From assembly GCA_017461505.1 (NCBI GenBank), contig JAFTXV010000007.1, positions 62,001 to 126,000 of the forward strand: a DNA stretch of 64,000 bases. The letters are read 5' to 3'. The notes below the pieces were generated by a model. That model was not told the origin of the DNA, did no database searches, and worked only from the letters and a program-made list of their open reading frames with translations. Shown piece after piece: positions 6,217 to 62,630 of this stretch. The stretch comes from Paludibacteraceae bacterium (GTDB lineage Bacteria; Bacteroidota; Bacteroidia; Bacteroidales; Paludibacteraceae). Each line of letters opens with the position of its first letter. Positions within the stretch are counted from its first letter, which is position 1. A program made the translations under genes and the position numbers.

Positions 6217-7302
6217 ATGCGTCGAAAAATAGCTATCATAGCCGGTGGAGACAGTTCGGAATACGAAGTGTCGCTCCGTAGCGCCGCAGGAATTTACTCA
6301 TTTTTATCGGGAATCGCGAGTCAGGAGTCAAGGCATGACTATGATTTGACCATTGTTTGCTTGCGGGGGAAAGAGTGGCGTGCGTTGGCAGAGACTGACA
6401 GCGAGTTGCAAAAGAACAACGGCGCAGTGCCTATGGACTCCGACAAATGGATGGCGATCGATAAAAATGATTTCTCGTTCACCTATCAGGGTGAAAAAAT
6501 GCCATTCGATTTTGCATACATCACCATCCATGGTACACCCGGCGAGAACGGTGTGCTACAGGGATACTTGGACATGCTAGGCGTGCCCTACTCATGTTGC
6601 GGCGTGCTGGCTGCAGCCATGACGTTCAACAAATACACCTGCAACCAATACCTGAAGGGCTTTGGTGTGAACGTGGCGGAGAGTGTGTTGCTAAGAAAGG
6701 CGAAAGGCGAAAGGTTAGAGGTTAAAGGCGAAGATATTATTGAGCAAGTGGGATTGCCATGTTTTATTAAGACGAATGTGGGTGGGTCGTCGTTTGGCGT
6801 GACCAAAGTGAAAACTCTGGAAGATGTGGTACCCGCGATAGAGAAAGCATTCGGCGAAGGCGACGAGGTGATTTGCGAGGCAGAGATGAAGGGCATAGAG
6901 ATCACCTGCGGTGTGTACAAGACCAAGAACAAGGCCGTGGCATTCCCTATTACCGAGGTGGTGACGAGCAATGAGTTTTTTGACTACGATGCGAAATACA
7001 ACGGACAAGTGGATGAGATTACCCCCGCCCGTATCCCCGACGAGGTGCGCGACAAGGTGCAAGCACTGACACTGAAGATATACGACATCTTGGGTTGCAA
7101 GGGAATTATTCGAGTGGATTATATTTTGACAGGCGATGAGGCGATGAGGCTATTAGGCGAAGAGGGAGGATGGAAAATTAATCTGCTGGAGGTGAATACA
7201 ACGCCGGGCATGACTGCAACATCGTTCATTCCGCAGCAGATACGCGCAGCAGGATTGGAGATTGGGGATGTGCTGGGTGAAATTATAGAGGATAGTTTTT
7301 AG
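6217..7302 (+). CDS. ddl: D-alanine--D-alanine ligase
   Basis: 361 residues; joins two D-alanines using ATP to make the dipeptide terminus of the peptidoglycan stem. ATP-grasp fold: N-terminal IAIIAGGDSSEYEVSLRSA, the central GVPYSCCGVLAAAMTFNK, FIKTNVGGSSFGVTKV, and the metal-binding LLEVNTTPGMTATS. The ATG at 6217 is chosen because earlier in-frame codons run through the tRNA gene. Two segments look like repeat insertions in surface turns: 6695-6733 (RKAKGERLEVKGED) and 7129-7167 (TGDEAMRLLGEEGG). Both are built from the purine repeats that also fill gene junctions in this window. The catalytic motifs are intact, so the enzyme should be active. Confidence 0.95.
   Translation: MRRKIAIIAGGDSSEYEVSLRSAAGIYSFLSGIASQESRHDYDLTIVCLRGKEWRALAETDSELQKNNGAVPMDSDKWMAIDKNDFSFTYQGEKMPFDFAYITIHGTPGENGVLQGYLDMLGVPYSCCGVLAAAMTFNKYTCNQYLKGFGVNVAESVLLRKAKGERLEVKGEDIIEQVGLPCFIKTNVGGSSFGVTKVKTLEDVVPAIEKAFGEGDEVICEAEMKGIEITCGVYKTKNKAVAFPITEVVTSNEFFDYDAKYNGQVDEITPARIPDEVRDKVQALTLKIYDILGCKGIIRVDYILTGDEAMRLLGEEGGWKINLLEVNTTPGMTATSFIPQQIRAAGLEIGDVLGEIIEDSF
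6695..6733 (+). repeat. in-frame purine repeat inside ddl (first)
   Basis: GAAAGGC occurs twice, followed by GAAAGGTTAGAGGTTAAAGG; identical in style to the intergenic heptads. It is translated without breaking the frame, between the central domain and the GLPCFIKTN strand. Confidence 0.75.
7129..7167 (+). repeat. in-frame purine repeat inside ddl (second)
   Basis: GGCGATGAGGCGATGAGGC followed by TATTAGGCGAAGAGG. The pattern matches the repeats at 8200 and 16089. It falls in the hairpin before the conserved metal-binding strand LLEVNTTPGM. Confidence 0.7.
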
Positions 7303-7500
7303 GAACGCCCCGCTGGGGCTGCAGTTGGGAGTTCGCCACTGCGTGGCTGTAGATCGGGCAAAAGCCCTGTAGATGGTAGATCGGCGCAGAGCGCCTGTAG
7401 AACCATAGAATATAAACTACAGCGAGTAGAACGAGCGATCTATAGTGAGCAGCGCGAACGATTTACAACGAAGTGATCTACAGCAAAGCGATCTATAAAC
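7303..7500. repeat. array of modular mini-hairpins with GTAGATC spacers
   Basis: The 204-bp gap between ddl and the prenyl synthase is filled by short palindromes: CCCCGCTGGGG, GCCACTGCGTGGC, GGGCAAAAGCCC and GGCGCAGAGCGCC. GTAGATC or GTAGAT lies between them, and degenerate AGCGATCTATAG units follow. Nothing coding is seen. The 7343-7381 part duplicates 5283-5321. Confidence 0.7.
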
Positions 7501-7506
7501 AACGAC

Positions 7507-8514
7507 ATGGATGTAAATAAAGAGATATTGAAGTTGGATTGGGAGCGTGAGCCAAAAGGCTTGTATGCCCCTATTGCCTATACATTGGCTGCTGGTGGCA
7601 AACGTGTGCGCCCACAATTGGCTATGATCGGTAGCCAACTATTTGGCGGCAAGGATGAAGAAGTGCTGCCTGCCGCATTGGCATTGGAAGTATTTCACAA
7701 CTTCACTCTACTCCATGACGACGTGATGGACAAAGCAGAAGTGCGTCGCGGACGTCCTACTGTGCACATCCAATGGAATGAGAACACCGCCATCCTGTCA
7801 GGCGACCAGATGATGATAGAGGCATACACCTTATTATCACAGGTGCCCGAGCGCGCGCTCGCGCGCGTGTTGCAACTATTCAACAAGATGGCTACCGAGA
7901 TATGCGAGGGGCAGCAATATGACGTGGACTTTGAGCAGAAGAGCGATGTGACCATCGAGGAATACCTGATGATGATTCGCCTGAAGACATCGGTACTACT
8001 TGCCAACGCATTGCAGATAGGCGCATACATAGCCGGAGCGAGCGAAGAAGAGCAACAGGCTGTATATCAGTTCGGTATCAACATCGGATTGGCCTTCCAA
8101 ATACAAGACGATATTCTGGACGTATGGGGCGACCCCAAGACCTTTGGCAAAGCCGTGGGCGGAGATATCGCGTGCAACAAGAAGACATTTGTGTATTTGG
8201 AGGCGATGAGGCGATCAGGCGAAAGAGCACCCCAAAACGCAAGCGTTTTCGGGGACCCCGCTGAGGAGAAAGGCGAGAGGTTAGAGGCGAGAGAAGAGTT
8301 GGAAGACTGGTATAACCAGGTGCTGGATGACAACAAGGAGAAGATTGCACGCGTGAAAGAGATATTCGAACAGTTGGGTGTGCGAGAGGCGTGTGAGCAA
8401 GTGGTGAGAGATTACACCCAGAGAGCATTGGATATACTGGAGACACTGCCACAAAATGAAGCGAGCGAAGAGTTGCGGAAGTTGGCAGAGAAGTTGCTTG
8501 TGAGGAGGGTTTAG
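7507..8514 (+). CDS. short-chain trans-isoprenyl diphosphate synthase (FPP/GGPP type)
   Basis: 335 residues; condenses isopentenyl diphosphate with allylic diphosphates. It shows GKRVRPQL (31-38), the first aspartate-rich motif DDVMD (71-75) with RRGRPT after it, and the second, QDDILD (200-205). A roughly 32-residue stretch encoded by 8200-8297 (about residues 232-264) separates the YLEAMR helix from ELEDWYN. It is purine repeat plus a GC hairpin, not family sequence. The gene is downstream of ddl in the same direction, separated by the hairpin array. It is one of two polyprenyl synthases here; the other (11426) has the long-chain pattern. The exact product length cannot be fixed from sequence. 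Confidence 0.88.
   Translation: MDVNKEILKLDWEREPKGLYAPIAYTLAAGGKRVRPQLAMIGSQLFGGKDEEVLPAALALEVFHNFTLLHDDVMDKAEVRRGRPTVHIQWNENTAILSGDQMMIEAYTLLSQVPERALARVLQLFNKMATEICEGQQYDVDFEQKSDVTIEEYLMMIRLKTSVLLANALQIGAYIAGASEEEQQAVYQFGINIGLAFQIQDDILDVWGDPKTFGKAVGGDIACNKKTFVYLEAMRRSGERAPQNASVFGDPAEEKGERLEAREELEDWYNQVLDDNKEKIARVKEIFEQLGVREACEQVVRDYTQRALDILETLPQNEASEELRKLAEKLLVRRV
8200..8297 (+). repeat. composite repeat insertion inside prenyl synthase gene
   Basis: GAGGCGATGAGGCGATCAGG is followed by a hairpin (CCCCAAAACG-CAAG-CGTTTTCGGGG), CCCCGCTGAGG, then GAGAGGTTAGAGGCGAGAG. Purine heptads and a mini-hairpin module are combined in one insertion whose length preserves the frame. Confidence 0.75.
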
Positions 8515-8650
8515 AGAGTAGAGGTGAAAACTGAAAGGTGAAAACTGAAAGGTGAAAACTGAAAACTGAAAGGTTAGAGGTTAGAGATTAGAGGTTAGAG
8601 GTTAGAGATTAGAGGTTAGAGGTTAGAGATTAGAGTTTAGAGACTAGAGA
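8515..8650. repeat. tandem repeats GTGAAAACTGAAAG then GAGGTTA heptads
   Basis: Three copies of a GTGAAAACTGAAAG-like unit are followed by about twelve heptads (GAGGTTA, GAGATTA) up to 4 nt before the next start codon. The final units (GAGACTAGAGA) occupy the ribosome-binding position of the following gene. Confidence 0.85.
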
Positions 8651-8653
8651 TAT

Positions 8654-9409: not shown

Positions 9410-9983
9410 CGTGGTGCATCTTTTGATCGCGACGATTAGCAGGAACCTTATCCACCAATTGAAAGTCATACGCCACACCTACCAGTGTGGTTTTGCGAGG
9501 TTGCGACTTGATAAATCGATCGTAATACCCTCCACCACGACCTAAGCGATTGCCTTGCTTATCGAAAGCTACGCCAGGCACGAGAATAAGATCGATCTGT
9601 CCCGTATAGGGATCAGTTGTGGGTTCGGGAATATTGTATTTACCACGATGCATCTTAGCATTGCCTTCATAAGGGCAAGCCGTCATCCATTTGCGATGCA
9701 CTACAGGGAAGAGGAATGTCTTCTCTTTTTTATACTTCCTGATTAGCGGCAAGAGATCCACCTCATTGTGCATAGGATAGTAGAGCAATACGGTCTTTGC
9801 CGATTGGAAGCAAGGCAGTTGCTCCAATTGTGAGATGATTAATGCTGACTGTTCAAAGATTTGCTCCTTGGTTAATAGTCTGCGCTTTTGCGCGAGCAAC
9901 TCGCGCATCTGATTCTTTTCACGAAGCAACTTTTGGCTAGGGAAAAGTTTTCTAATGTCTAAAAGTACTGATTCGAAAAGCAT
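9393..9983 (-). CDS. 5-formyltetrahydrofolate cyclo-ligase
   Basis: 196 residues; ATP-dependent conversion of 5-formyl-THF to 5,10-methenyl-THF, returning folate to one-carbon metabolism. Hallmarks are YYPMHNEVDLLPLI, the central PVVHRKWMTACPY, LILVPGVAFDKQGNRLGRGGGYYDRF (nucleotide-binding GRGGGYYD) and the closing VGVAYDFQLVDKVP. I start at 9983 because the minus-strand promoter at 10003-10034 predicts transcription from about 9996, which would leave no leader for the upstream ATG at 10001. It converges with the preceding gene (17-bp overlap). Confidence 0.9.
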   Translation of the reverse strand: MLFESVLLDIRKLFPSQKLLREKNQMRELLAQKRRLLTKEQIFEQSALIISQLEQLPCFQSAKTVLLYYPMHNEVDLLPLIRKYKKEKTFLFPVVHRKWMTACPYEGNAKMHRGKYNIPEPTTDPYTGQIDLILVPGVAFDKQGNRLGRGGGYYDRFIKSQPRKTTLVGVAYDFQLVDKVPANRRDQKMHHVIAPA

Positions 9984-10002
9984 ATTCCTATAAAAAAACA
10001 TA

Positions 10003-15959: not shown

Positions 15960-17027
15960 ATGACGAATAAAGAATTATACCGCGAATTTTGCAAAAAGAA
16001 CCGTCAGTTGCCTATTTTCATGCAAGACTGGTGGCTGGATGCTGTATGTGCAGGAAAAGAGTGGGATGTTATGCTCTGTGTTAAGAGAGGTGATGAGGAG
16101 ATGAGGTTATTAGGTGATGAGGAGATGAGGTTATTAGGTGATGAGGAGATGAGGTTATTAGGTGATGAGGAGATGAGGTTATTAGGTGATGAGGAGATTG
16201 TGGCAGCAATGCCATACCTATTGCGTAAGCGCGCCTGGATGCAATATATACTGATGCCTCAACAAACACAGATAGGAGGAATCTGGATGAGTGAGGACAT
16301 CACTGAGGACGCAGAAAAAGTTACTGCCGTATGTCAACAATTTGCACGTAAGTTAGGAGAGATGGGGCTGAGCTATTATTACCAGCACTATCCTATTGGT
16401 AGCCCTGCCCCACTGGCGATGGAGACACTAGGTTTCAAGGCAAAGGAACGTGTGACGTATCGTATAGAAGATTTGAGTGATTTGGACAAAGTGATTGGTA
16501 GATTCTCGAAGAACAAGAAACGTCAGTTACAGAAGGCATTATCGTTGCATGCAGAGTTAGGAATGAATGTAGAGGACTTTTATCGTTTTCATAAGCGCTG
16601 TTTGCAGGACCAGGGTAAGGAGATTAGTTACACGCGTGAGTTTTTATTAGTATTAGAGCGGAAGGCTCGCCGTTTAGAGCAATGCCAAATATTATCTATC
16701 TGCAATGCGGACAATGAGGTATTAGCGGCAGCGTTTTTAGTATGGGATAAGCAGACTATGTATTATCTGATTCCTTGTTATGATGTTCGCTACAAGGATT
16801 CTGGCGCGAGCGCGCTGCTAGTATTAGAAGCGATAAAGTTGGCACGTCAGAAGGGTGTGGTATTTGATTTTGAGGGCAGTATGATTCGTGGCGTAGCGAA
16901 TCACTACAAACAATTTGGTAGCACGCGCACCGTGTATTACAGCGTAGAGAAATATTACAAATGGTATTTTTGGTTTGCCAACGCGTATAATTGGTTACGG
17001 GAAAGGAAGTTTCGGGATAAGAGATAA
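15960..17027 (+). CDS. FemAB/GNAT-like acyltransferase with internal 24-bp repeats
   Basis: 355 residues. The fold pattern is a double-GNAT (FemAB/BioF2-like) enzyme: N-terminal PIFMQDWWLDAVC, middle FSKNKKRQLQKAL, and C-terminal AAAFLVWDKQTMYYLIPCYD, ASALLVLEAIKLARQKGVVFDFEGSM. Such enzymes transfer aminoacyl or acyl groups to envelope components; the substrate is unknown. Residues 44-79 consist of four perfect copies of GDEEMRLL plus a partial fifth, inserted before the first beta-strand AAMPYLLRK. An upstream in-frame start at 15840 is rejected because it precedes the promoter. Glycosyltransferases follow on the same strand. Confidence 0.8.
   Translation: MTNKELYREFCKKNRQLPIFMQDWWLDAVCAGKEWDVMLCVKRGDEEMRLLGDEEMRLLGDEEMRLLGDEEMRLLGDEEIVAAMPYLLRKRAWMQYILMPQQTQIGGIWMSEDITEDAEKVTAVCQQFARKLGEMGLSYYYQHYPIGSPAPLAMETLGFKAKERVTYRIEDLSDLDKVIGRFSKNKKRQLQKALSLHAELGMNVEDFYRFHKRCLQDQGKEISYTREFLLVLERKARRLEQCQILSICNADNEVLAAAFLVWDKQTMYYLIPCYDVRYKDSGASALLVLEAIKLARQKGVVFDFEGSMIRGVANHYKQFGSTRTVYYSVEKYYKWYFWFANAYNWLRERKFRDKR
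16089..16196 (+). repeat. perfect 24-bp tandem repeat, 4.5 copies, in-frame
   Basis: The unit GGTGATGAGGAG-ATGAGGTTATTA is repeated four times without change (16089-16184) with a 12-nt partial copy after it. The unit is a multiple of three and encodes GDEEMRLL. The absence of point differences implies recent or ongoing expansion. Confidence 0.95.
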
Positions 17028-17063
17028 GATAAGAGATGAGAGATAAGAGAGAAGAGATAAGAG
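17028..17063. repeat. 7-bp repeats (AGATAAG) between acyltransferase and glycosyltransferase
   Basis: The 36-nt junction consists of AGATAAG, AGATGAG and AGAGAAG heptads. The repeat supplies the purine-rich sequence directly before the TTG start of the next gene. Confidence 0.85.
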
Positions 17064-26086: not shown

Positions 26087-26259
26087 CAAAAGTAGTTTAA
26101 TTACATACCAATCACTAACTAATAACTAACTAATCACTAACTAATCACTAACTAATCACTAAGTATTGGTAAGTAATCAGTATGATAAACAAAGGTAGTA
26201 CGGTAAGTGATAGGCACAAATTAGGTGCAAAAGTAATATATTTTGAATACATATACAAG
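26087..26259 (-). promoter_or_regulatory. two candidate promoters of the TonB-dependent receptor flanking a repeat array
   Basis: Distal: TACTTTTG at 26228-26235 with CTTG (26256-26259) 20 nt upstream on the minus strand. Proximal: TACTTTTG at 26087-26094 without a clear -33 box. The 11-bp array (26110-26164) lies between them, inside the leader of the distal transcript. The 393-bp gap between this gene and the hpt promoter holds no coding sequence that I can see. Confidence 0.5.
26110..26164. repeat. 11-bp tandem repeat AATCACTAACT, five units
   Basis: Units AATCACTAACT, AATAACTAACT, AATCACTAACT, AATCACTAACT and AATCACTAAGT run without gaps. The same 11-mer family appears at 44685-44761 and 55795-55827, always upstream of a minus-strand gene. 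Confidence 0.95.
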
Positions 26260-26434: not shown

Positions 26435-26965
26435 ATGTTGGAGTACGAAGGTTTGTTTTTTAAGGAGAGTATTTCTGCAGAAGAGATACAAAAGGAAGTA
26501 GCTCGCGTAGCTCAAGAAATCAACGCGGACTATGTAGGCAAAGAGCCACTATTTGTGTGCGTATTGAATGGTGCATTCATGTATGCCGCTGATTTACTGA
26601 AACATATTACATTGCCTTGCGAAATCACGTTCGTTCGTATGAAGTCGTATGAAGGCACAGAGACAACAGGTAAAGTGAACATGCTGATTCCGTTGCAAGT
26701 GGATGTAAAAGGACGTGATGTGATCGTGATAGAAGATATTATAGACACAGGTATCACCATGCATGCCTTCAAGAAGATTTTACAAGATAGTGGCGCAAAG
26801 TCGGTAGAATTAACCTCGTTCTTCTATAAACCCAATTCGTTACGCTACGAAGATGTGACACCCAAATACTATGGTAAGGCCATTCCACCCGCATTCATCA
26901 TCGGTTATGGATTAGATATCAATGAGAAAGCGAGAAATTTAGGTTCGATTTATACTAAAGTTTAG
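26435..26965 (+). CDS. hpt: hypoxanthine phosphoribosyltransferase
   Basis: 176 residues; salvages hypoxanthine/guanine to IMP/GMP with PRPP. FVCVLNGAFMYAADLLKHI (base loop), MKSYEGTETTGKV, the PRPP motif VIVIEDIIDTGITM, and C-terminal PPAFIIGYGLDINEKARNL. The ATG at 26435 is chosen since LEYEGLFFKESISAEEI is the usual N-terminus. Heads a unit with DUF1599, a BT_3928-like protein, tpiA and a gamma-carbonic anhydrase. In many Bacteroidota this position is shared with adk. Confidence 0.95.
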   Translation: MLEYEGLFFKESISAEEIQKEVARVAQEINADYVGKEPLFVCVLNGAFMYAADLLKHITLPCEITFVRMKSYEGTETTGKVNMLIPLQVDVKGRDVIVIEDIIDTGITMHAFKKILQDSGAKSVELTSFFYKPNSLRYEDVTPKYYGKAIPPAFIIGYGLDINEKARNLGSIYTKV

Positions 26966-26998
26966 AGTTTAGAGATTAGAGATTAGAGATTAGAGGAT
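26966..26998. repeat. 7-bp repeats (GAGATTA) filling the hpt-DUF1599 junction
   Basis: The 33-nt junction is GAGTTTA followed by GAGATTA repeats and ends GAGGAT immediately before ATG. The last unit supplies the only Shine-Dalgarno-like sequence (GAGG) of the next gene. Confidence 0.85.
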
Positions 26999-30282: not shown

Positions 30283-30686
30283 TAACATCCTGACAATCAG
30301 TAGTGATATACAGGACACCATTCGTAAAATCCTTGCTACACTCCATCTCGCAGCAGATCGGTGCATTCGCCACCATTGCCACACGAAACATCCACCCCCT
30401 CGCCTTTTGCCTTTCCCCTTTCACTTCATTGCCTTATCGCCTACTCGCCTGATAAACTTCGCTCCTAGGCATATCCTCCGCATTATCCGTCAAGACATGA
30501 GTCCACTCCTCACCTTTCAGTTTTACGATTTTCTATGCGGAGCATAAAGATCGCCTCACTTTTCAGTTTTCCGTTTTCAACCCTAAACGGCTCATAATTC
30601 GTCATGCATTGCAACAGCGCACTGTTGCCGCATTCCACAGTAAACAGATGTTCCGCTACGCGGTAGTATGTACGAGTGAGTGTCAT
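30270..30686 (-). pseudogene. frame-broken N-terminal remnant resembling an HprK-like serine kinase
   Basis: From an ATG at 30686 the frame gives TRTYYRVAEHLFTVECGN, then LLQCMTNYEPFRVEN and stops at a repeat. A second frame continues GEEWTHVLTDNAEDMPRSEVYQ and stops. A third gives GWMFRVAMVANAPICCEMEC, SKDFTNGVLYI and FCIDNEL. Read together they resemble the N-terminal half of the Bacteroidota HprK-like proteins (TNYAPF..., NNALM...). Each break coincides with an inserted purine repeat (ACTGAAAGGTGAG, GGCGATAAGGCAATGAAG, GGCAAAAGGCGAGGG). The kinase domain is absent. Together with the fragment at 30058 this suggests a decayed two-gene locus joined by deletion. Confidence 0.45.
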
Positions 30687-32256: not shown

Positions 32257-33390
32257 TTGGTTATCCCGATGTCTCATGCTATTTCGCTTGATAGCCTGCT
32301 AAACCTGCCCGCGATGGGTATTCCTGTGGTGAATTATTCACCCGAATCCACCTGGGAATTTGGTGCCGCTGCACAAGGATATTTTCGACTGCCTAACCAA
32401 GAACGCACTTCCATTGTGCAACTTGATGGCACCTATTCACTGAATAAGCAGTGGTATATCAATGCGCAGGGGACATTGTATTTTAAGGCTAAAGGCAATG
32501 AGGCGAGAGAAAAAAGGCAAAAGGCAAGGGAATGGCAACTGCAATTTCGTGCAGGATATAGCGACCGCCCTGCCACTTACTATGGCGTGTATGACGACCC
32601 TCATTTTGCCAACGAAGGCAACCTAGGGATTGGCATGCTTCGCCAAGGCACACCCTATCAAATGCAACGCGGCTACCTCCATGTACAAGCGCCGATCAGT
32701 GTAGGTAAAGATTGGGCAGTGGGACCTATGGCGGACTTACTAATAGCACAATACGAGATCGCACGCAAATACAAGACTTCCGACCCATTAGTGCAAGCAG
32801 CTTTGGGTGCTGTAGCCCTCTATGACTCGCGCGACAATGTATTCTACCCCACTCGAGGCATATTCTTCAAACTGTCTGCTGCCGCAGCATGGACAAGCAG
32901 AGTAAATATCCCAGAGGGACAACAAGCTACCATCAATGGTCTACTAGCCGCGGATTTAAGGCAATTCATATCACTGCCATGCGACCTAGTATTTGCATGG
33001 CAATTCAAAGCTCAATTGATGCTATCAGAGTACGCCATTTCGCACCTAACCCTATACCCTATGCTTCCGCGCCTGGGTGGACAAGATGGTTTGCGCGGTG
33101 TGAATAGCGATATGTTCCGCGATGACATCATGATGGCATTGCAAGCCGAACTGCGCATACCAATTTGGAGCATCTTCCGTGGTGCTGTATTCGCAGGGAT
33201 AGGGGATGTGTATGACTACCACAATTGGCACTGGGCTATACCCAAAGTAGGATATGGAGTTGGACTCCGCGCCACTATCAACAAGGCAAAAGTAAACATC
33301 CGATTCGATATTGCTCGCAGCAATGTCGATCCACGATGGAACAACATAAATGCATATAGTTTCTATCTAACAGCTACAGAAGCGTTTTAA
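32257..33390 (+). CDS. BamA/TamA-like outer-membrane beta-barrel protein
   Basis: At least 377 residues. Barrel of the surface-antigen (D15) family: GYLHVQAPISVGKDWAVGP, VALYDSRDNVFYPTRGIFFKLSA, PMLPRLGGQDGLRGVNSDMFRDD (the G-x-RG loop motif) and a C-terminal strand ending in AF. POTRA domains are absent, so this is a lone barrel. The TTG at 32257 is the first conventional start, but it falls in the middle of a signal peptide: in-frame codons from 32221 read VKRSLILIIAWALVIPMSHA, preceded by a stop at 32212. The true start may be a rare codon (CTG 32239, ATC 32218) or the gene may have lost its ATG. Residues around 78-90 (KAKGNEAREKRQKA) are a purine-repeat insertion. Confidence 0.78.
   Translation: MVIPMSHAISLDSLLNLPAMGIPVVNYSPESTWEFGAAAQGYFRLPNQERTSIVQLDGTYSLNKQWYINAQGTLYFKAKGNEAREKRQKAREWQLQFRAGYSDRPATYYGVYDDPHFANEGNLGIGMLRQGTPYQMQRGYLHVQAPISVGKDWAVGPMADLLIAQYEIARKYKTSDPLVQAALGAVALYDSRDNVFYPTRGIFFKLSAAAAWTSRVNIPEGQQATINGLLAADLRQFISLPCDLVFAWQFKAQLMLSEYAISHLTLYPMLPRLGGQDGLRGVNSDMFRDDIMMALQAELRIPIWSIFRGAVFAGIGDVYDYHNWHWAIPKVGYGVGLRATINKAKVNIRFDIARSNVDPRWNNINAYSFYLTATEAF
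32484..32531 (+). repeat. in-frame purine repeat inside BamA-like gene
   Basis: AAGGCTAAAGGCAATGAGGC, then GAGAGAAAAAAGGCAAAAGGC. The same GGCAAAAGGC motif is found in the decayed locus at about 30400. It lies in a predicted strand-connecting loop. Confidence 0.7.
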
Positions 33391-35435: not shown

Positions 35436-35460
35436 CAGTCGCATTCTACAAGGTAATCTT

Positions 35461-35510
35461 AAAACTTTTAGAACCCTTAGAACTTTTAGAACTATTTTAA
35501 CCCTTTAAAC
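35461..35510. repeat. 9-bp repeats (TTTTAGAAC) in the recA leader
   Basis: CTTTTAGAAC, CCTTAGAAC, TTTTAGAAC, TATTTTAAC and CCTTTAAAC follow one another. A related series precedes the tryptophanase gene at 63217-63250. Confidence 0.75.
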
Positions 35511-35521
35511 ATTATACAACT

Positions 35522-36531: not shown

Positions 36532-38010
36532 TTGAATCAAACGACGCTCATATTATCCCCTGAGAAAGCTCACGACATGGAACAACAGTTTCGTGTCGTG
36601 AAGCGTTCTGTTGATGCCCGCCAAAAGCAACTCAAGGTCCACCTTACCGTACTCACTGATGAACATGGCGCACCGCTTCCCAAGGACGCCCCCATCCCGC
36701 TCTACGAGCCACCACAATTCCAAGATGTGCATAATACCGAGCATAGTGTGGCTATCATCGGCGCAGGCCCTGCGGGCTTATTCGCCGCACTCACACTGCT
36801 GGAGCACGGTATAAAACCAATTATCTTCGAACGTGGTAAAGAGGTCGCCGAGCGCAAGAAGGACATCGCAACACTCAACCGCAATCAGGGACTGAATGCC
36901 GAGTCCAACTACTGCTTTGGCGAAGGTGGTGCAGGTACTTTCTCTGATGGCAAACTCTTCTCACGCAGCAAAAAGCGCGGCAATATGCAACGCGTCATGG
37001 AACTCTTTCACCATTTCGGTGGAGACGACCGCTTACTCTACGAAGCCCATGCCCATATCGGGAGCGATAAACTGCCTACCATTATCCGCCGCATGCGCGA
37101 GTGCATCCTCGAACACGGTGGCGAGATTCATTTTTCTACTTGTGTCACTAGCCTCTCGTCTTTCGCCTTATCGCCTAATAGCCCAGTTATTCTAGCGATT
37201 GGGCATTCGGCGCACGACACATACCACATGCTACATGCCAATGGTGTTGCCTTAGCTACGAAAGGTTTCGCTATGGGCGTGCGTGCGGAGCACCCACAAG
37301 CATTGATTAACAAGCTTATGTACCACGATCCATCACCCGAACTCATTCGTTTAGTAGGTAATGCTTCGTATTCGTTGGTCACTCAGGTGCAAGGTCGTGG
37401 TGTTTATTCCTTCTGTATGTGCCCAGGCGGACATATCGTCCCAGCAGGCAGTGCGCTGAATAGTTGTGTTGTTAATGGTATGTCTGCCAGCCACCGCAAC
37501 TCTCCATACGCCAATTCGGGTATGGTCGTAGAAATTCGTCCCGAGGATTTGATAGATCAAGACCCACTTGCTGGACTACGTTTCCAGCAACAGTTAGAAT
37601 ATTTATCCTATCAGCATGGTGGGGAACCTTCCATCGCTCCGGCCCAACGCTTACGCGACTTCGTGGAAGGGCGCAAGAGCAGCACCCTGCCTGCATGTAG
37701 CTACTTGCCTGGCGTACGTTCCAGCAGCATGCACGAGTGGTTGCCCGAACATATCGGCAAACGCTTACAACAAGGCTTCCGCGATTTCGATCGCAAGTAC
37801 CACGGCTTCTTAACTAACGAGGCTGTTATTCTCGGCGTAGAGAGCCGCAGCAGTAGTGCTATACGTCTGCCTCGTGACCCAGAGACACTGCAGTCCATCT
37901 CTACTCCTCACCTCTACCCTTGTGGCGAAGGTGCAGGCTACGCAGGCGGCATCACCTCCTCCGCATTGGACGGCATCAATGCCGCCCTCAAGATCGCCGA
38001 ACAACTTTGA
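36532..38010 (+). CDS. FAD-dependent oxidoreductase of the uncharacterised YdiU-independent 'FAD-dependent protein' family
   Basis: 492 residues. N-terminal domain with RVVKRSVDARQKQLKVHLTV, the fingerprint of this family, then the FAD-binding Rossmann motif SVAIIGAGPAGLFAALTLLEHGI (about 74-96), GEGGAGTFSDGKLFSRSK, FCMCPGGHIVPA and the C-terminal PCGEGAGYAGGITSSALDGINAA. The reaction is unknown. The TTG at 36532 (2 bp after recA) is chosen because the next ATG (36577) would cut into the conserved N-terminal domain. Residues encoded by 37151-37185 (SLSSFALSPNSP) come from a pyrimidine-strand copy of the purine repeats. Confidence 0.88.
   Translation: MNQTTLILSPEKAHDMEQQFRVVKRSVDARQKQLKVHLTVLTDEHGAPLPKDAPIPLYEPPQFQDVHNTEHSVAIIGAGPAGLFAALTLLEHGIKPIIFERGKEVAERKKDIATLNRNQGLNAESNYCFGEGGAGTFSDGKLFSRSKKRGNMQRVMELFHHFGGDDRLLYEAHAHIGSDKLPTIIRRMRECILEHGGEIHFSTCVTSLSSFALSPNSPVILAIGHSAHDTYHMLHANGVALATKGFAMGVRAEHPQALINKLMYHDPSPELIRLVGNASYSLVTQVQGRGVYSFCMCPGGHIVPAGSALNSCVVNGMSASHRNSPYANSGMVVEIRPEDLIDQDPLAGLRFQQQLEYLSYQHGGEPSIAPAQRLRDFVEGRKSSTLPACSYLPGVRSSSMHEWLPEHIGKRLQQGFRDFDRKYHGFLTNEAVILGVESRSSSAIRLPRDPETLQSISTPHLYPCGEGAGYAGGITSSALDGINAALKIAEQL
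37151..37185 (-). repeat. in-frame purine repeat (antisense) inside FAD protein gene
   Basis: On the minus strand TGGGCTATTAGGCGATAAGG, then CGAAAGACGAGAGG. This is the same family as ddl 7129 and ispG 57597 but inserted in the other orientation, so it is read as SSFALSPNSP. Confidence 0.65.
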
Positions 38011-44585: not shown

Positions 44586-44684
44586 TATTTTCCTTTTTTC
44601 CAACGTTTCTTACAATATTTTCACCGAATTCTATAAAACACTCTCTATATTCACCTTTCATTTTCCTTCCTCTTTCTTATCTTT

Positions 44685-44761
44685 ACTTAGTTATTAGTTA
44701 GTGATTACTTAGTGATTAGTTAGTTATTAGTTAGTGATTAGTTAGTTATTAGTTAGTGATT
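44685..44761. repeat. 11-bp tandem repeat AGTTAGTGATT, seven units
   Basis: ACTTAGTTATT, AGTTAGTGATT, ACTTAGTGATT, AGTTAGTTATT, AGTTAGTGATT, AGTTAGTTATT and AGTTAGTGATT; reverse complement of the family at 26110. It sits between the divergent wzc and rplU promoters. No gene in 44452-45090. Confidence 0.95.
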
Positions 44762-44926
44762 CATAAGTTATTATAATGTAATTGGTAGGTCATTTATAGG
44801 TGATTCAGCAATCTTCACCGCACCTCACAGTGAGACCACAACATAACTCCATCTTCATTTTCTTAATAATACAAAATTTTCCCAATAATGCAAAACCTAT
44901 CTTTTTCGCAAAAAAAACACAATTTA

Positions 44927-55757: not shown

Positions 55758-55827
55758 CGGCATTGGTTCGGTATTGATTCGGTATTGATTCGGGAATCAC
55801 TAACTAATCACTAACTAATCACTGACT
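55758..55827. repeat. two adjoining 11-bp tandem repeats (CGGTATTGATT x3, AATCACTAACT x3)
   Basis: CGGCATTGGTT, CGGTATTGATT and CGGTATTGATT (55758-55790), then after GGG A, AATCACTAACT, AATCACTAACT and AATCACTGACT (55795-55827). Two unrelated 11-mers with the same period lie side by side in the leader of the 55286-55690 gene. Confidence 0.9.
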
Positions 55828-55842
55828 AAAGGTAAGTGATTG

Positions 55843-57365: not shown

Positions 57366-58769
57366 ATGAATATACAATTAACATACGACAGAAGAACGAC
57401 GTCAACCACCCTTGTAGGCGGTTTGGAGATTGGTAGCGAACACCCAGTGCGCATTCAAACCATGGCTAACACCTCAACCAATGACATTGAAGGTAGTGTT
57501 GCGCAAGCTAAACGCTGTATGGATGCGGGGGCAGAGTTAGTACGATTCACTACTCAAGGTTTGCGCGAAGTGGAGTCGCTGGGGCAGATACACCAGCGCC
57601 TTATCGCCTTATCGCCTCATTGCCCTAACACCCCATTGGTAGCAGATGTACATTTTCAGTCCGATGTGGCAGATGCCGCAGCGAAGGTAGTAGAGAAGGT
57701 CAGGATTAACCCCGGAAACTACATAGACCCTGCTCGTAAGTTTAAGCAAATTGACTACACCGACGAGGAGTATCAAGCAGAACTCGAGCGTCTGCGTAAT
57801 CGCTTCATTCAATTACTCAATATCTGCAAAAAGCACAAAACTGCAATCCGTTTGGGTGTGAATCATGGTAGTTTGAGCGACCGTATCATGTCGCGCTACG
57901 GAGATACACCCGAGGGAATGGTGGAGAGTTGTATGGAGTTTTTGCGCGTGGCCGTAGCGGAGGACTTTAAGGATATTGTATTGTCTATCAAGGCAAGCAA
58001 CACCCGAGTGATGGTAACGACTGTTCGCTTGTTGGTATGGCAAATGCAAGAAGAAGGTATGGCCTTTCCTCTGCATTTGGGTGTCACAGAAGCAGGCGAA
58101 GGCGAAGATGGTCGTGTGAAGTCGGCAGTAGGAATAGGTGCGCTATTGGCAGATGGCATAGGCGACACTATTCGCGTGAGTTTGAGTGAAGCACCCGAAA
58201 AGGAGTTGCCTGTAGCGCGTGCCCTAGTGGACTATTTCGCTGATAAGCAAAGCATTCGCTATACGAAAGACACTTTAGTTCGTGTTGAAGAAAAGACCGT
58301 ATATTATTCCAATGCAGACACAGACTGGGCAATGTATCAGTTGCATGCGGCAGCAGAGTGCGGTAGGTTGTTATGGGATTATCATTGCGATGAGTTGGTG
58401 CTCAGGAACGACAACTTTGCTTCCGACGACTTGGAGCGATTGAGCAAAGATATTCTACAAGCCGCGCGCGTGCGTATGTATAAAACGGAGTATATCTCTT
58501 GCCCCGGTTGCGGTCGCACCCTGTTTGATTTGGAGCAGACTATTGCTCAAGTAAAAGCAGCGACTTCGCATTTGCAAGGCCTGAAGATTGGTATTATGGG
58601 TTGTATCGTGAATGGGCCTGGCGAGATGGCAGATGCCGATTATGGGTATGTGGGCGCTGGTCGAGGAAAAGTGAGTCTCTACAAGGGCAAGGAGTGTGTG
58701 CTAAAGAATATCCCTCAAGAAGAAGCGGTGGAGCAGTTGTTATCCTTGATTGAGTGTGACAAACAATAA
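57366..58769 (+). CDS. ispG: (E)-4-hydroxy-3-methylbut-2-enyl-diphosphate synthase
   Basis: 467 residues; [4Fe-4S] enzyme that reduces MEcPP to HMBPP in the MEP isoprenoid pathway. TIM barrel with PVRIQTMANTSTNDIEGSVAQAKR and LVADVHFQSDVA, cluster ligands in ISCPGCGRTLFDL (two Cys) and GIMGCIVNGPGEMADADYGYVG (third). Bacteroidota IspG usually has an extra domain giving about 600 residues; only about 100 residues (LVDYFADKQSIRY... VLRNDNFASDDLE) separate barrel and cluster domain here, so the insert is reduced. Residues from 57597-57627 (RLIALSPHCPN) are a purine-repeat insertion. ATG at 57366 follows the promoter. Confidence 0.95.
   Translation: MNIQLTYDRRTTSTTLVGGLEIGSEHPVRIQTMANTSTNDIEGSVAQAKRCMDAGAELVRFTTQGLREVESLGQIHQRLIALSPHCPNTPLVADVHFQSDVADAAAKVVEKVRINPGNYIDPARKFKQIDYTDEEYQAELERLRNRFIQLLNICKKHKTAIRLGVNHGSLSDRIMSRYGDTPEGMVESCMEFLRVAVAEDFKDIVLSIKASNTRVMVTTVRLLVWQMQEEGMAFPLHLGVTEAGEGEDGRVKSAVGIGALLADGIGDTIRVSLSEAPEKELPVARALVDYFADKQSIRYTKDTLVRVEEKTVYYSNADTDWAMYQLHAAAECGRLLWDYHCDELVLRNDNFASDDLERLSKDILQAARVRMYKTEYISCPGCGRTLFDLEQTIAQVKAATSHLQGLKIGIMGCIVNGPGEMADADYGYVGAGRGKVSLYKGKECVLKNIPQEEAVEQLLSLIECDKQ
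57597..57627 (-). repeat. in-frame repeat (antisense) inside ispG
   Basis: On the minus strand TAGGGCAATGAGGCGATAAGG, then GATAAGG; same family as ddl 7129 and the FAD gene at 37151. It is translated as LIALSPHCP immediately before the conserved TPLVADVHF strand. Confidence 0.7.
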
Positions 58770-58775
58770 AAAAGA

Positions 58776-58810: not shown

Positions 58811-58826
58811 ATATAGTAAGATAGGA

Positions 58827-60218
58827 TTATGCGAATAGCTTGAGGCACTCCTCTAGTGAAACGAGTTGCTGTTCTCCAGAAAGCATATTCTTTAGCATTA
58901 CCTTGTTAGCCGCCATTTCATCTCCACCCACAATAGCCACCAACGGTATCTTCTTAGCATCGGCATAACTCATCTGTTTCTTCATTTTCGTGGGTTCTGG
59001 ATATACCTCCACACTCACACCTTTTTCGCGAAGTTCCTTTGCCCAACGGAGAGCATAAAGCAGTTCTTGCTCACCGAAAGTGGCAAAAAGCAGTTGGGTA
59101 GTGGATTGCAAATTCTCAGGATAGAGTTTGAGTTCGGAGAGTACATCGTAGATACGATCTGCGCCAAATGATATACCCACACCCGATACCCCTGGCATAC
59201 CAAAGATACCAGTGAGGTTGTCGTAGCGGCCACCACCTGTGATGCTACCCATCTGTACATCAAGGGCTTTCACCTCAAAGATGGCACCTGTATAATAGTT
59301 CAAGCCACGAGCAAGACATAGATCCAACTCTAATTGCAATCCTGTTGGTTCAAATGTTGACAAATCACCATCTTGTGTGCTTTGAGCGTAGAGCGCAAAA
59401 ATAGTTCGGAGTTCCTCAATACCTTTAAGACCTGTTTCTGAAGAAGCGAGCACCTGCTCGAGCTGGTCTAGTTTCTCAGTGTTGGTGCCACTGAGATTAA
59501 GAATAGGTTGCAATGCATCCACAGCCTCTTGTGGAAGCCCTTTGTCAAGCAACTCTTTGTTTACGTTTTCAACACCAATCTTATCCAGTTTGTCGATTGC
59601 TACAGTGATATCAATCATACGCTCTGGTTGACCGATTACCTCAGCAATACCAGCGAGGATCTTGCGATTGTTGATATGCAGCGACACACGAATACCGAGA
59701 CGACGATATACCTCCTCTACGATTTGGATCAGTTCCACTTCGCTGAGCAGGGAGTTGGTGCCTACCACGTCCACATCACATTGGTAGAACTCACGGTAAC
59801 GACCTTTTTGAGGACGGTCTGCACGCCAAACGGGTTGAATTTGGTATCGCTTGAATGGGAATTGAATGGTATCGCGATGTTGTACCACAAAACGCGCAAA
59901 AGGCACAGTAAGGTCATAACGAAGACCCTTCTCGCTCACCTTGCTAGTGAGGGCGCCAATAGTGGAATTAGCGAGTGAGTCGGTATCCAATGCGCTTCTC
60001 CAATCACCCGAATTTAGGATTTTAAAAAGCAGTTTGTCGCCCTCCTCACCATACTTACCCATCAGTGTGGATAGGTTTTCCATAGCGGGAGTTTCTATCT
60101 GTTGAAAGCCATAGAGCGAGAAGACAGACTTGATGGTGTCAAAAATATAATTACGGCGTGCCATCTCTAATGGAGAGAAGTCGCGTGTACCTTTTGGAAT
60201 ACTTGGTTTTTGTGCCAT
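58827..60218 (-). CDS. hisS: histidyl-tRNA synthetase
   Basis: 463 residues. KGTRDFSP start, motif 2 with [14 protein letters not shown] and [25 protein letters not shown], His-specific [18 protein letters not shown] and [13 protein letters not shown]-terminal anticodon domain with [23 protein letters not shown]. Class II enzyme, full length. 36 bp downstream of waaA on the same strand. Confidence 0.97.
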
Positions 60219-60254
60219 ATTTATTATAAAGTTGAAAGGTTTTTACAAGTTTTT

Positions 60255-61466
60255 TTAAGAGCGATGGAAAAGCGCGTTGTATATTTGTTCAGTTGCTCCA
60301 CATTCGCTTTGCACATAGTCGTTTGCTCGCTGTCCCATTAGGGTTTGTTGTTCGAAAGCAGTATTAAGAGCGTTAGCAAACTCGCTGTAGTTCTTTACGC
60401 TAATGGCGGCGCCGGCTTCTATTAGTCCGTGCGCCTCACGGAACTTCTGCCAATTAGGCCCAAACACAACGGGCATACCATAGACCGCTGCCTCAAGGGT
60501 ATTGTGAATACCCACTCCAAAACCACCTCCTATATATGCTACATGTCCATATCGGTAGATAGATGAGAGCAGTCCGATGGTGTCCACCACCAAGACGCGA
60601 CATTTATCCAAACTCATCGGGGTTGCTTCAGTATAGCGAACATATCGTCCCTCGAAATATTGAAAGAGTTGATGCAAATGCGCAGCGTGTATCTCGTGTG
60701 GCACCAAGACTAGACGCACATCCTCATGTTCCGCCATATAATGGGCGAACATCTGTTCCTCATGTGGCCATGTGCTACCAGCAATAATAACACGATTAGC
60801 CCCCCGCACAAACCCCTCAATAATGGGCAAGTCCTTCGCTAATTTTCTCACTTCAGTCACGCGATCAAAACGTGTATCTCCCGCTACCGTTACGCAGTTT
60901 ATGCCATGTTTCTGCAGCAATTGCGAAGAGGCTTGGTCTTGCACATAGATATGCTGGAAAGCATGCAACAATCTCAAATAGGCTTTTCCCCAAGGTCGGA
61001 AGAAAAGCTGGTTTGGACGAAAGATGGCTGAGATAAGGTAGGTGGGCACTTGCTTAGAACGGAGTGCGTTGAGATAAGCAGGCCAAAACTCATACTTAAC
61101 GAATACCGCCATTTCGGGTGATAGTATCTCAAGCCATTTTTTCGCGTTGCGACGGGTAGCAAAGGGCAAGTATAACACTTTATCTACTTTGTTATAGTCT
61201 TTACGCAACTCATATCCAGAGGGGGAGAAGAATGTCAGTAGGATCTTACGAAAAGGCAGTTCACGGCTCAATCGTTCGATGATAGGTCTTGCTTGCTCAA
61301 ACTCACCAACGGACGCCACATGAATCCACGCCACAGGTGTGTCACCCACAGAAGTGCGCCACTCTTGCAATGCAGCCATGGCAGCAGCTTGTCCCGAAAC
61401 AAGTAATTTTGCTTTTCTGTGCCCAAACAATGCAGCCAAACGTACTATCCAAAAATACAAATTCAT
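60255..61466 (-). CDS. waaA: 3-deoxy-D-manno-octulosonic acid transferase
   Basis: 403 residues; adds KDO to lipid A precursor at the inner membrane (GT30). An N-terminal anchor helix (NLYFWIVRLAALFG), WIHVASVGEFEQARPIIERL, FFSPSGYELR, MAVFVKYEFWPAYL, VAGDTRFDRV, IIAGSTWPHEE, and AYIGGGFGVGIHNTLEAAVYGMPVVFGP, which is diagnostic. The ATG at 61466 is chosen because the next in-frame upstream codon lies inside the -7 box; transcription begins about 3 nt before this ATG. Confidence 0.95.
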   Translation of the reverse strand: MNLYFWIVRLAALFGHRKAKLLVSGQAAAMAALQEWRTSVGDTPVAWIHVASVGEFEQARPIIERLSRELPFRKILLTFFSPSGYELRKDYNKVDKVLYLPFATRRNAKKWLEILSPEMAVFVKYEFWPAYLNALRSKQVPTYLISAIFRPNQLFFRPWGKAYLRLLHAFQHIYVQDQASSQLLQKHGINCVTVAGDTRFDRVTEVRKLAKDLPIIEGFVRGANRVIIAGSTWPHEEQMFAHYMAEHEDVRLVLVPHEIHAAHLHQLFQYFEGRYVRYTEATPMSLDKCRVLVVDTIGLLSSIYRYGHVAYIGGGFGVGIHNTLEAAVYGMPVVFGPNWQKFREAHGLIEAGAAISVKNYSEFANALNTAFEQQTLMGQRANDYVQSECGATEQIYNALFHRS

Positions 61467-61475
61467 TTCAATTTG

Positions 61476-61551
61476 CAAAGGTACTGCTTTTTTCTCACAT
61501 ACGCAAATTTATCCTACGATTTGCATAATTAAAAATTATTTTGTACCTTTG
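61476..61551. promoter_or_regulatory. divergent near-leaderless promoters of waaA and tsaD
   Basis: Minus: TTTG (61504-61507), 20 nt, TACCTTTG (61476-61483), ATG 61466. Plus: TTTG (61520-61523), 20 nt, TACCTTTG (61544-61551), ATG 61560. With starts about 7 nt after the box, both mRNAs carry at most 2-4 nt of leader. Confidence 0.78.
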
Positions 61552-61559
61552 CAGTCGGA

Positions 61560-62630
61560 ATGAAAAATGTGGTAATTTTAGCAATCGAATCGAGTTGTGA
61601 TGACACTTCCGCAGCTGTCATCCGTGATGGTGTGTTATTGAGCAATGTGACCGCCTCTCAGCGTGTCCATGAGGAGTTTGGCGGTGTGGTGCCTGAACTG
61701 GCGAGTCGTGCGCATCAGTTGAACATCGTTCCAGTTGTGGACGCTGCGCTGAAGCGTGCAGGTGTGGATAGTAAGGATCTGAGCGCCATAGCCTTTACTC
61801 GTGGTCCTGGTTTGCTAGGAAGCCTATTGGTAGGTGTAAGTTTTGCCAAGGGTATGGCTCTTGCTCATAATATTCCATTGGTAGAGGTGAATCACCTTCA
61901 GGCGCATATTTTGGCACATTTCATCAAGACCAATAGCGAAGCGTCCAATAGCCCTTCAGGGCGCCCAATAGGCGGTACGCCGTCCAATAGCGAAGCGTCC
62001 CCTTCCTTCCCCTTCCTTTGCCTACTAGTCAGTGGCGGAAATAGTCAGATTGTATTGGTCAAATCTCACCGCGAGATGGAGATAGTGGGTCAGACAATAG
62101 ATGATGCAGCAGGGGAAGCGTTTGACAAGTGTGCGAAGATTATGGGACTTCCCTACCCTGGTGGTCCATGGATTGACCGATTAGCTAAAGAAGGAAATGC
62201 CGAAGCGTTCCAATTTGCTAAACCCAATATTCCGGGCTATAACTACTCCTTCTCGGGTCTCAAAACGTCCTTCCTATATTTTCTCCGCGACAACCTCAAA
62301 GAGAACGAGAACTTCATCGAGGAGAACAAAGCCGACCTTTGTGCATCCTTGCAAAAAACGGTCATCGACATCCTCATCAACAAACTCAAACGCGCTGCCA
62401 AGGATCTCAAAATCAATGAGATTGCCGTAGCAGGTGGTGTAAGTGCAAACAGTGGTTTGCGTGATGCATTGATTGATTTGGGTCGTCGTCATCGTTGGAA
62501 GGTGCATATTCCTCCTTTTGCTTATACCACCGACAACGCGGCGATGGTATGCCAAGCGGGCTACTTCAAATTCCTTGATGGCGAGTTCTGTCCAATGGAT
62601 GCAGCCCCTTACGCCAAGACCAAGATTTAG
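61560..62630 (+). CDS. tsaD: tRNA N6-adenosine threonylcarbamoyltransferase
   Basis: 356 residues; forms t6A37 on ANN-decoding tRNAs with TsaB/TsaE. ASKHA fold: LAIESSCDDTSAAVI, ASRAHQLNIVPVV, TRGPGLLGSLLVG, metal-binding VNHLQAHILAHF (two His), LLVSGGNSQIVLV and GGVSANSGLRDAL. Between AHF and PFLCLLVSG lies an insertion of about 25 residues (SEASNSPSGRPIGGTPSNSEAS) encoded by hairpin modules at 61931-62000. Family lengths near 335 make this the only extra sequence. Downstream is an exosortase. Confidence 0.95.
   Translation: MKNVVILAIESSCDDTSAAVIRDGVLLSNVTASQRVHEEFGGVVPELASRAHQLNIVPVVDAALKRAGVDSKDLSAIAFTRGPGLLGSLLVGVSFAKGMALAHNIPLVEVNHLQAHILAHFIKTNSEASNSPSGRPIGGTPSNSEASPSFPFLCLLVSGGNSQIVLVKSHREMEIVGQTIDDAAGEAFDKCAKIMGLPYPGGPWIDRLAKEGNAEAFQFAKPNIPGYNYSFSGLKTSFLYFLRDNLKENENFIEENKADLCASLQKTVIDILINKLKRAAKDLKINEIAVAGGVSANSGLRDALIDLGRRHRWKVHIPPFAYTTDNAAMVCQAGYFKFLDGEFCPMDAAPYAKTKI
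61931..62000 (+). repeat. in-frame mini-hairpin modules inside tsaD, TCCAATA spacers
   Basis: GCGAAGCG, GCCCTTCAGGGC, GGCGGTACGCCG and GCGAAGCG are separated by TCCAATA or CCAATA. The hairpin-spacer architecture equals that of the 7303-7500 array, with a different spacer. The start and end modules are identical. Confidence 0.85.

Follow-up and report, generated by a model that had tools for sequence, protein, structure and literature searches.

How does a repeat of seven letters, with neither fixed ends nor an evident enzyme, reach hundreds of places in a genome? The question is raised by a window of 64,000 nucleotides (the whole stretch of DNA analyzed here) from an uncultured Paludibacteraceae genome, and by its relatives: 7- and 8-bp units misfit the reading frame, yet they occupy many housekeeping enzymes of one genus. 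A second class of repeats adds the question of how the stems of hairpin copies can alter in sequence and yet remain self-complementary. We found that species of this genus of uncultured gut bacteria have their own 7- and 8-bp repeats and small hairpins dispersed genome-wide, in frame within housekeeping genes included. The reading we favor is of dispersed, probably neutral repeats that are altered by slippage and retained within a gene only if its frame and its protein product can bear them. All sources for the genus were metagenome assemblies, with one genome per species. The repeat sites of the window, in genes and in junctions, are as follows.

5157-5191, plus strand: 7-bp array (TGAAAAC) near the C-terminus of a 1723-aa protein (TRF)
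5281-5336, plus strand: hairpin-type repeats with TGTAGATC linker, intergenic (linker scan)
5383-5467, plus strand: 7-bp array, intergenic (TRF)
6217-7302, plus strand: ddl, host of two repeat-encoded slots (NCBIfam D-alanine--D-alanine ligase, above cut-off)
6695-6732, plus strand: 7-bp array, ddl slot 1, residues 160-172, RKAKGERLEVKGE (TRF; alignment)
7131-7165, plus strand: 8-bp array, ddl slot 2, residues 305-317, TGDEAMRLLGEEG (TRF; alignment)
7346-7401, plus strand: hairpin-type repeats with TGTAGATC linker, intergenic (linker scan)
8200-8222, plus strand: 8-bp array in the polyprenyl synthase gene, 7507-8514 (TRF)
8230-8254, plus strand: hairpin with perfect arms, within the polyprenyl synthase insert (located by sequence)
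8263-8293, plus strand: 7-bp array, also within the polyprenyl synthase insert (TRF)
8522-8651, plus strand: 7-bp arrays, GGTGAAAACTGAAA then GAGGTTA types, intergenic (TRF)
16087-16198, plus strand: 8-bp array with a 24-bp higher-order unit, GDEEMRLL x 4.6, in the FemAB-like gene, 15960-17027 (TRF)
17016-17063, plus strand: 7-bp array, 3' end of the FemAB-like gene and junction (TRF)
26962-26995, plus strand: 7-bp array, junction (TRF)
30428-30450, minus strand: 8-bp repeat outside called genes (octamer search)
32484-32527, plus strand: mixed 7/8-bp repeat in the Omp85-like gene, 32314-33390 (listed by TRF as 7-bp, 32485-32527)
37151-37187, minus strand: 8-bp repeat, antisense in the FAD-binding protein gene, 36577-38010 (minus-strand octamer matches 37162-37184)
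57595-57625, minus strand: 8-bp repeat, antisense in ispG, 57366-58769 (TRF array 57597-57617)
61931-61998, plus strand: hairpin-type repeats, linkers TCCAATAG/CCCAATAG, in tsaD, 61560-62630

These repeats are real. All sites named in the first-pass annotation exist, those with 7- and 8-bp units being found again by TRF or a strand-aware octamer search, and the in-gene copies, which occurred in both orientations, come from the repeat families that also occupy the junctions, lie between conserved blocks and leave the reading frame intact, as it had stated. The octamer dimer had 34 matches in the window against a shuffled mean of 4.4 and a shuffled maximum of 10, and the heptamer had 25 against 0.01 by chance. 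The genome-wide count that had been called for gave 65 + 74 = 139 octamer-dimer matches at up to 3 mismatches (overlapping matches, not separate arrays) and 0 + 0 in the reversed control. Base composition as the source of the repeat similarity was excluded by the shuffled and reversed controls.

The second class consists of hairpins in which the linker is constant and the stems vary between copies, self-complementarity being kept. A first scan, which asked for stems of at least 5 after the linker, caught few (2/29, 6/69, 1/21 and 6/109 in genome G000; 5/49, 7/131 and 2/26 in G014; 1/2 in G035; control about 0.03) and was replaced by bounded-spacer scans, in which 24 of 26 stems were self-complementary, compared with 4.2 when the arms were dealt anew. 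The tsaD insert had been listed together with the purine repeats, as of hairpin type; it belongs to this separate class, although with one linker (CCCAATAG) it falls outside the strict bounded-spacer pattern, whose 30 copies do not include it.

The repeat-encoded residues had been proposed to be insertions relative to homologues, and at many sites they are extra. We compared the slot length of each window protein with distinct other proteins; orthologues of IspG, the FemAB-like protein, the FAD protein and TsaD came from the genus, and the Ddl set added Bacteroides and others. The proposal holds for polyprenyl synthase (longer than 64/64 others), the FemAB-like protein and TsaD (29/29 each), and for most Ddl homologues (slot 1 longer than 82, and slot 2 longer than 81, of 96 distinct sequences); PDB entry 3i12 is without 11 residues of Ddl slot 2. 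It does not hold as plain addition at every site, since several are slots re-used by unlike repeats. The IspG slot was longer than 23/29 (4 relatives had longer ones), the FAD protein slot was longer than only 5/29 (23 relatives had longer ones, several with other repeats), and the Omp85-like slot could be compared with one homologue from another genome, G014, where a dissimilar repeat-like stretch fills it; in all three, other repeat-like stretches occupy the slot in some relatives. As to whether unrelated genera carry the same residues, none outside Paludibacteraceae did so among the Ddl matches listed (up to L118), and the other genes speak for the genus only. Judged from sequence, the inserts would lie in loops of the folded proteins. 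Homologues that span the site were available for 50 coding arrays; 17 of these arrays were absent from one homologue or more, versus 4.6% of 887 control segments, and 13 from most homologues, versus 0.8% of control segments. The remaining 33 had no clear gap in any homologue, which counts against the explanation favored below; these arrays are old, or they stand in for variable sequence of about the same length.

The phenomenon is also wider than first noted. The repeats had been taken as one family of one genome, a view that we abandon because the families vary from one species of the genus to the next, and other species have different ones within their genes. Of the 307 genes called in G035, 46 had a 7/8-bp array, LepA, SufB, MurI and RimO among them. 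Period-7 arrays numbered 115 in this genome (59 coding, 38 noncoding, 18 straddling), 14 coding, 33 noncoding and 7 straddling in G000, and 10 coding and 12 noncoding in G014; there were none of either kind in G028, and 12 Bacteroides/Phocaeicola loci had 5 noncoding and no coding arrays. Dispersed loci share units: identical unit pairs among arrays were observed 209 times in G035 (4.9 expected), 32 times in G000 (1.2) and 5 times in G014 (0.29). Sharing between coding arrays and noncoding arrays of the same genome was specific in G035 (52/62, versus 23 and 19 with those of other genomes) and weak in the sister species G000 (14/27, versus 11 and 11) and G014 (8/15, versus 9 and 6). All 102 coding arrays are free of in-frame stops, which is true by construction; 39 of them would hold a stop if every unit were consensus. 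A peak at 30-33 bp among G035 coding arrays (30/52, score-based detection) was rejected as a characteristic array length, as exact runs fall from 16 bp with no peak.

Slots are re-used. A 7/8-bp repeat occurred in 23 of 339 homologue slots versus 4 of 1471 control segments, and one slot may hold unlike families and hairpins in sister species and nothing of the kind in others. The repeats are a natural map of protein insertion tolerance, with different sequences at some slots in sister species. Between close relatives, G069 and G070 differ by 45 bp of AATGGAA in ddl and by heptamer inserts of 27 and 18 bp in two other open frames, with family sizes of 46 and 7, respectively, and G067 and G068 differ by single 7-bp length steps; no alignments were obtained for G069_C5 versus G070_C6 or for G071 versus G072. 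Some inserts are common to separate assemblies of different species (L037/L041, which share the ddl AATGGAC insert, and L063/L066). In an underpowered comparison of k-mers of ddl inserts with their own flanks, only 4 of 32 had at least 10 matches.

We consider it likely that genome-specific 7-/8-bp tandem families and hairpins were seeded at many unrelated places, that gene copies survive where tolerated, and that slots are re-used across species. Arrays and hairpins would be seeded in trans at unrelated sites, most plausibly when replication or repair switches templates from one array to another, and slippage would then change them. For a copy to survive in a gene, its length would have to preserve the frame, its unit variants would have to be free of stop codons, and its site would have to be a tolerant stretch between conserved blocks; such slots are filled by one family in one species and by another in the next, and the in-gene repeats would be neutral. 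A bolder version, possible but on the whole doubtful, has tolerant slots rewritten, without a transposon, in the current repeat vocabulary of the species, and dispersed microsatellites therefore evolving in concert within a genome; hairpins would arise by fold-back synthesis, each round of copying producing a fresh self-complementary stem and leaving the linker as it was. Alternatively, the arrays might not have dispersed at all: each could have expanded where it stands, out of host-gene sequence, since mismatch repair misses loops of 7-8 bp and variable loops tolerate the growth. Among long simple repeats, those with a 7-bp unit are the most frequent in many bacteria (PMC4679880 and PMC4692102, in the parts available), the steps between G067 and G068 are single units, and exact runs fall smoothly with length as gradual growth predicts; however, one and the same unit turns up at unrelated loci much more often than chance would give, families are species-specific, and no AATGGAA seed was seen by eye at the empty ddl site of G070, and we regard growth in place as unlikely.

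Selection of the in-gene repeats as linkers, interaction sites or mRNA hairpins tuning expression or folding is a decidedly weak contender: stems stay self-complementary despite sequence change and some inserts are kept across species (ddl AATGGAC), but both orientations occur, and the same slot has unlike families or hairpins in sister species and none in some. It seems very improbable that these are classical small mobile elements, MITE-like or reverse-transcribed. Copies are dispersed in genes and junctions, as are the Rickettsia elements, yet the purine arrays have neither fixed nor inverted ends, and reverse transcriptase was rejected as the writer because RVT_1, present in 10 of 41 genus genomes, is absent from the repeat-rich G000, G014, G035, G006 and G003. 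Target duplications were not established, the close genome pairs being too diverged for short ones to be read. Although every genus source is a metagenome assembly, the chance of an assembly artefact or of a base-composition effect is close to nil, given the reversed and shuffled controls and the same inserts in separate assemblies.

The repeats work like Rickettsia palindromic elements, yet they are not members. The accessible parts of PMC3767692 and PMC2229807 describe single palindromic elements of 100-150 bp that occupy junctions and conserved protein genes with the frame intact, at sites that may be hotspots for different families. The parallel drawn in the first-pass annotation is a fair one in function: the repeats here also sit in conserved protein genes and leave them in frame. 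They differ in being tandem 7/8-bp units of variable number (arrays of about 20-130 bp) or short linker-hairpin units, in lacking a long stem-loop with inverted ends (the purine arrays are direct repeats, and the hairpins have short stems between linkers), and in forming many families per genus that differ between sister species. No description of a simple-repeat version of such elements in Bacteroidales was found in the literature searched, which covered few subscription papers, in agreement with the earlier impression. Intergenic heptamers in tandem have been described before, some Bacteroidetes included: the parts of PMC4679880 and PMC4692102 available report TAACTGA in Beggiatoaceae, Cyanobacteria and five Bacteroidetes, GGGAATC in Xanthomonas and GGGGA(C/T)T in Nostoc, with 89-93% of heptamers intergenic in two Xanthomonas. 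Such repeats (LSSR/STRR) share with ours the tandem direct 7-bp units, genome-wide families and patchy distribution; unlike these mainly intergenic heptamers, just over half of the period-7 arrays in G035 are coding, which is not so in G000.

In the Nostoc trnL intron, too, a conserved gene reportedly has a loop that tolerates repeats of more than one class. The likeness lies in short repeats of alternative classes at a tolerant spot, but that case, as far as the available text goes, is one RNA intron (heptanucleotide repeats in the P6b stem-loop; PMC4476775) and ours involves many proteins. Inverted repeats within protein genes are also known from Nematomorpha mitochondria, whose protein-coding palindromes are, in the portion of PMC6649704 available, long and perfect, unlike the short stems between fixed linkers in these bacteria. 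As regards phages, the octamer dimer had no exact match in viral contigs, and a gapped hairpin pattern found there in 65 stretches is unrelated, with three nested pairs in 0 of 108 spacers. In the same contigs, GAGGTTA x 3 occurred in 18 stretches, 3 of them within open frames of at least 150 aa, and AATGGAC in 4, one of them within such a frame.

The repeat phenomenon is real and wider than the first-pass annotation saw. The source genome (1.74 Mb, 22 contigs, 81.85% complete; analyzed stretch C4:62001-126000) has its best Ddl matches, among the best 80 loci, in metagenome assemblies of Paludibacteraceae from the guts of ruminants and other animals. The arrays were detected by TRF, and the copies inside genes, claimed earlier to leave the frame unbroken, indeed lie in frame. 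Base composition did not account for the similarity of the repeats: in the window, the octamer dimer had 34 matches vs a shuffled mean of 4.4, and the heptamer 25 vs 0.01. Genome-wide, the octamer dimer (≤3 mismatches) gave 65+74 overlapping hits vs 0 for the reversed pattern. Repeats of 9 bp (TTAGAACTT type) were also observed at 35449-35519 and 63204-63256.

We then compared the lengths of the repeat-bearing slots between conserved blocks with those of distinct other proteins, taken from genus searches (41 genomes each, best ≤30 loci per search) and, for Ddl and prenyl synthase, additionally from the named loci of the Ddl search.

Slot lengths of window proteins compared with other proteins
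Prenyl synthase: 36 residues; 64/64 others shorter
FemAB-like: 43 residues; 29/29 shorter
TsaD: 31 residues; 29/29 shorter
Ddl slot 1: 19 residues; 82/96 shorter
Ddl slot 2: 22 residues; 81/96 shorter
IspG: 15 residues; 23/29 shorter, 2 equal, 4 longer
FAD protein: 20 residues; 5/29 shorter, 1 equal, 23 longer

The suggestion that the repeats encode extra residues held for prenyl synthase, FemAB-like protein and TsaD and, relative to most homologues, for Ddl; in IspG and the FAD protein, the slot of some relatives contains a different repeat-like stretch. The Ddl of PDB 3i12 has 11 residues fewer at slot 2. In one genome (G022; locus L146, C77:1334-2713), IspG lies inside a 1006-aa open frame, possibly a fusion or long extension.

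A broader insertion test covered the 50 of 105 coding arrays with a spanning homologue in the comparison set. For 17 of the 50 arrays, at least 50% of the array residues were missing from one or more homologues, compared with 4.6% of 887 control segments, and for 13 arrays they were missing from most homologues vs 0.8% of controls; LepA, a RluD-like protein and IleS were clear cases. No such gap was found in the homologues for the other 33 arrays, many of which lay in variable stretches of similar length.

Coding and noncoding arrays were counted, with genes from a custom gene caller, in partial genome samples (G000, 464 kb; G014, 400 kb; G035, 400 kb; G028, 199 kb).

Arrays by repeat period (coding/noncoding/straddling)
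G000: period 7, 14/33/7; period 8, 13/4/0; period 11, 0/29/0
G014: period 7, 10/12/3; period 8, 6/8/0; period 11, 0/28/1
G035: period 7, 59/38/18; period 8, 3/6/8; period 11, 5/12/1
G028: period 7, 0/0/0
12 Bacteroides and Phocaeicola loci (153 kb): period 7, 0/5/2

In the count of coding against noncoding copies, proposed in the first-pass annotation, period-7 arrays were more often coding than noncoding in G035 (59/38) but not in G000 (14/33) or G014 (10/12). The 11-bp family (AATCACTAACT type; window 26110-26162, 44683-44773 and 55795-55829) had no coding copy in the samples of G000 and G014. Arrays of 7/8 bp occurred in 46/307, 25/380 and 14/302 called genes of the G035, G000 and G014 samples, respectively. 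Among the best 80 loci, ordered by Ddl similarity, L061-L096 (36 loci, 408 kb) contained 38 coding arrays, compared with 2 for L097-L140 (44 loci, 514 kb, some from more distant Paludibacteraceae). Twenty proteins bearing arrays were scanned against NCBIfam, and 19 gave a match with an E value of at most 1e-20. GldB, RsmA, PorX, an RluA family member, MurI, SufB, LepA, BirA, MATE, RimO, FolC, YgiQ, IleS, RibBA and RibD exceeded the curated cut-off, and PdxB, ApbC, an RlmI-like protein and KdtA fell under it. Of the window proteins, Ddl, IspG and TsaD were over a cut-off; prenyl synthase, FemAB-like and Omp85-like proteins are named at family level, and the FAD protein had weak partial matches only.

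Repeat families were specific to genomes, as judged from forward and reverse hits combined in 41 genomes of the genus. The pattern GAGGTTA x 2.6 was found in G000 (102), G006 (29), G025 (22) and G014 (15), with ≤7 in others; its reversed control was not empty (G027 16, G030 11, G035 10), probably reflecting another heptamer family. ACAATGG x 2.6 occurred in G035 (54), G004 (36), G032 (31), G002 (29) and G026 (17), with ≤5 in others and a single reversed hit over all 41 genomes. GGGTTAC x 3 occurred in G035 (72), G006 (52), G003 (44), G018 (40), G022 (31), G026 (27), G032 (23) and G061 (17), with ≤8 in others and one reversed hit overall. AATGGAC inserts in the ddl or FAD slot were seen in G002, G004 and G035, all among the four genomes richest in the unit. 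The octamer (≤2 mismatches) was present in 5/61 genomes, own genome counted: G000 (67), G014 (35), G025 (28), G011 (15, variant unit) and G009 (1). G011, a different species of the genus, has a long array of the variant octamer GAGGAGAT at C2:790-888.

Identical units also recurred within genomes. Period-7 arrays formed 209 pairs of identical unit class in G035 vs 4.9 expected (maximum 11 over 100 draws), 32 vs 1.2 (maximum 5) in G000 and 5 vs 0.29 (maximum 2) in G014. Within one mismatch, 52/62 coding arrays of G035 matched its own noncoding units, compared with 23 for G000 units and 19 for G014 units. The contrast was weak in G000 (14/27 own, 11 and 11 elsewhere), and none was seen in G014 (8/15 own vs 9 for G000 and 6 for G035); these two are near relatives.

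The same slots have been used by different repeats. In the FAD protein, downstream of a common anchor (ETCVTSLK or similar), different species carry heptamers of the GGGTTAC, GAGGTTA, AATGGAA, AATGGAC, GTTGAAA or CTACACC type or hairpin types, and some have no clear repeat. In relatives, Ddl slot 2 holds AATGGAC, AATGGAA, GGGTTAC, ACAATGT, octamer-heptamer or non-repeat inserts, and the window sequence at the Omp85-like slot is unlike the repeat-like stretch of G014. Overall, of the 50 array slots spanned by a homologue, 10 had a homologue with a 7/8-bp repeat of its own (23/339 pairs vs 4/1471 control segments). Since these ten include two pairs that are one slot viewed from both species and one array common to both, about seven separate sites with unlike units remain.

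Repeat content also differed between close relatives. Between G069 and G070 (34.9 kb, 86.8% identity), ddl had +45 bp of AATGGAA in only one member, another open frame +27 bp of CCAATGT/CCAATAT and a third +18 bp of TGAAAGG; AATGGAM hits numbered 46 vs 7. The differences between G067 and G068 were single 7-bp units, located where no clear gene lies. A heptamer-flanked, MITE-like element of ~85 bp with partly inverted ends was seen in one of two close relatives:
L331 about 5400 and L332 about 3475 (G069 C5:5399, 23475)
L081 about 3467

The best supported explanation is that repeats specific to each genome would be seeded in trans, that slippage would then alter the arrays, and that a filter would act on copies in genes. 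Were all units consensus, a stop codon would arise in 39/102 coding arrays. Template switching may be the route of spread. RVT_1 was not found in G000, G014, G035, G006 or G003 and was present in 10/41 genus genomes. The proposed parallel with Rickettsia palindromic elements, described as 100-150 bp long and able to sit in ORFs with the frame intact (PMC3767692; PMC2229807), fits the way of working but not the construction. Heptamer repeats are already known, chiefly intergenic (PMC4679880; PMC4692102), and some archaea have an excess of 6-11 bp repeats between genes (PMC4060949). According to a survey, repeats of 6-9 bp are enriched in certain prokaryotic phyla, Bacteroidota have a high density of repeats in coding sequence, and trinucleotides are the repeats most often found within genes (PMC12699852). 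The literature searched contained no description of an in-gene simple-repeat system in Bacteroidales, in agreement with the earlier claim of novelty.

Finally, fixed-linker repeats with copy-specific self-complementary stems were observed at these places:
window 5281-5336
window 7346-7401
window 61931-61998
G014 samples, L281-L300

In the G000 and G014 samples, the family GTCCNATA(G...C)GTCC had 30 copies (27 in G014; 24 within called genes) with 26 distinct spacers, in 24 of which the first four pairs were all Watson-Crick, vs a mean of 4.15 (maximum 9) when arms were dealt anew 500 times. The family TGTAGATC(G...C)TGTAG had 25 copies (22 distinct, 9 in genes), self-complementary in 12/22 vs a mean of 2.85 (maximum 8) for redealt arms. 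Because linkers are fixed while stems covary, the sequences would mean either hairpin selection or fold-back synthesis. A de novo linker scan gave its strongest signal in G014 and G000. The TsaD insert, with the same linker type and two self-complementary spacers, lies outside the strict pattern, and a peptide resembling it occurs in other open frames of G014.
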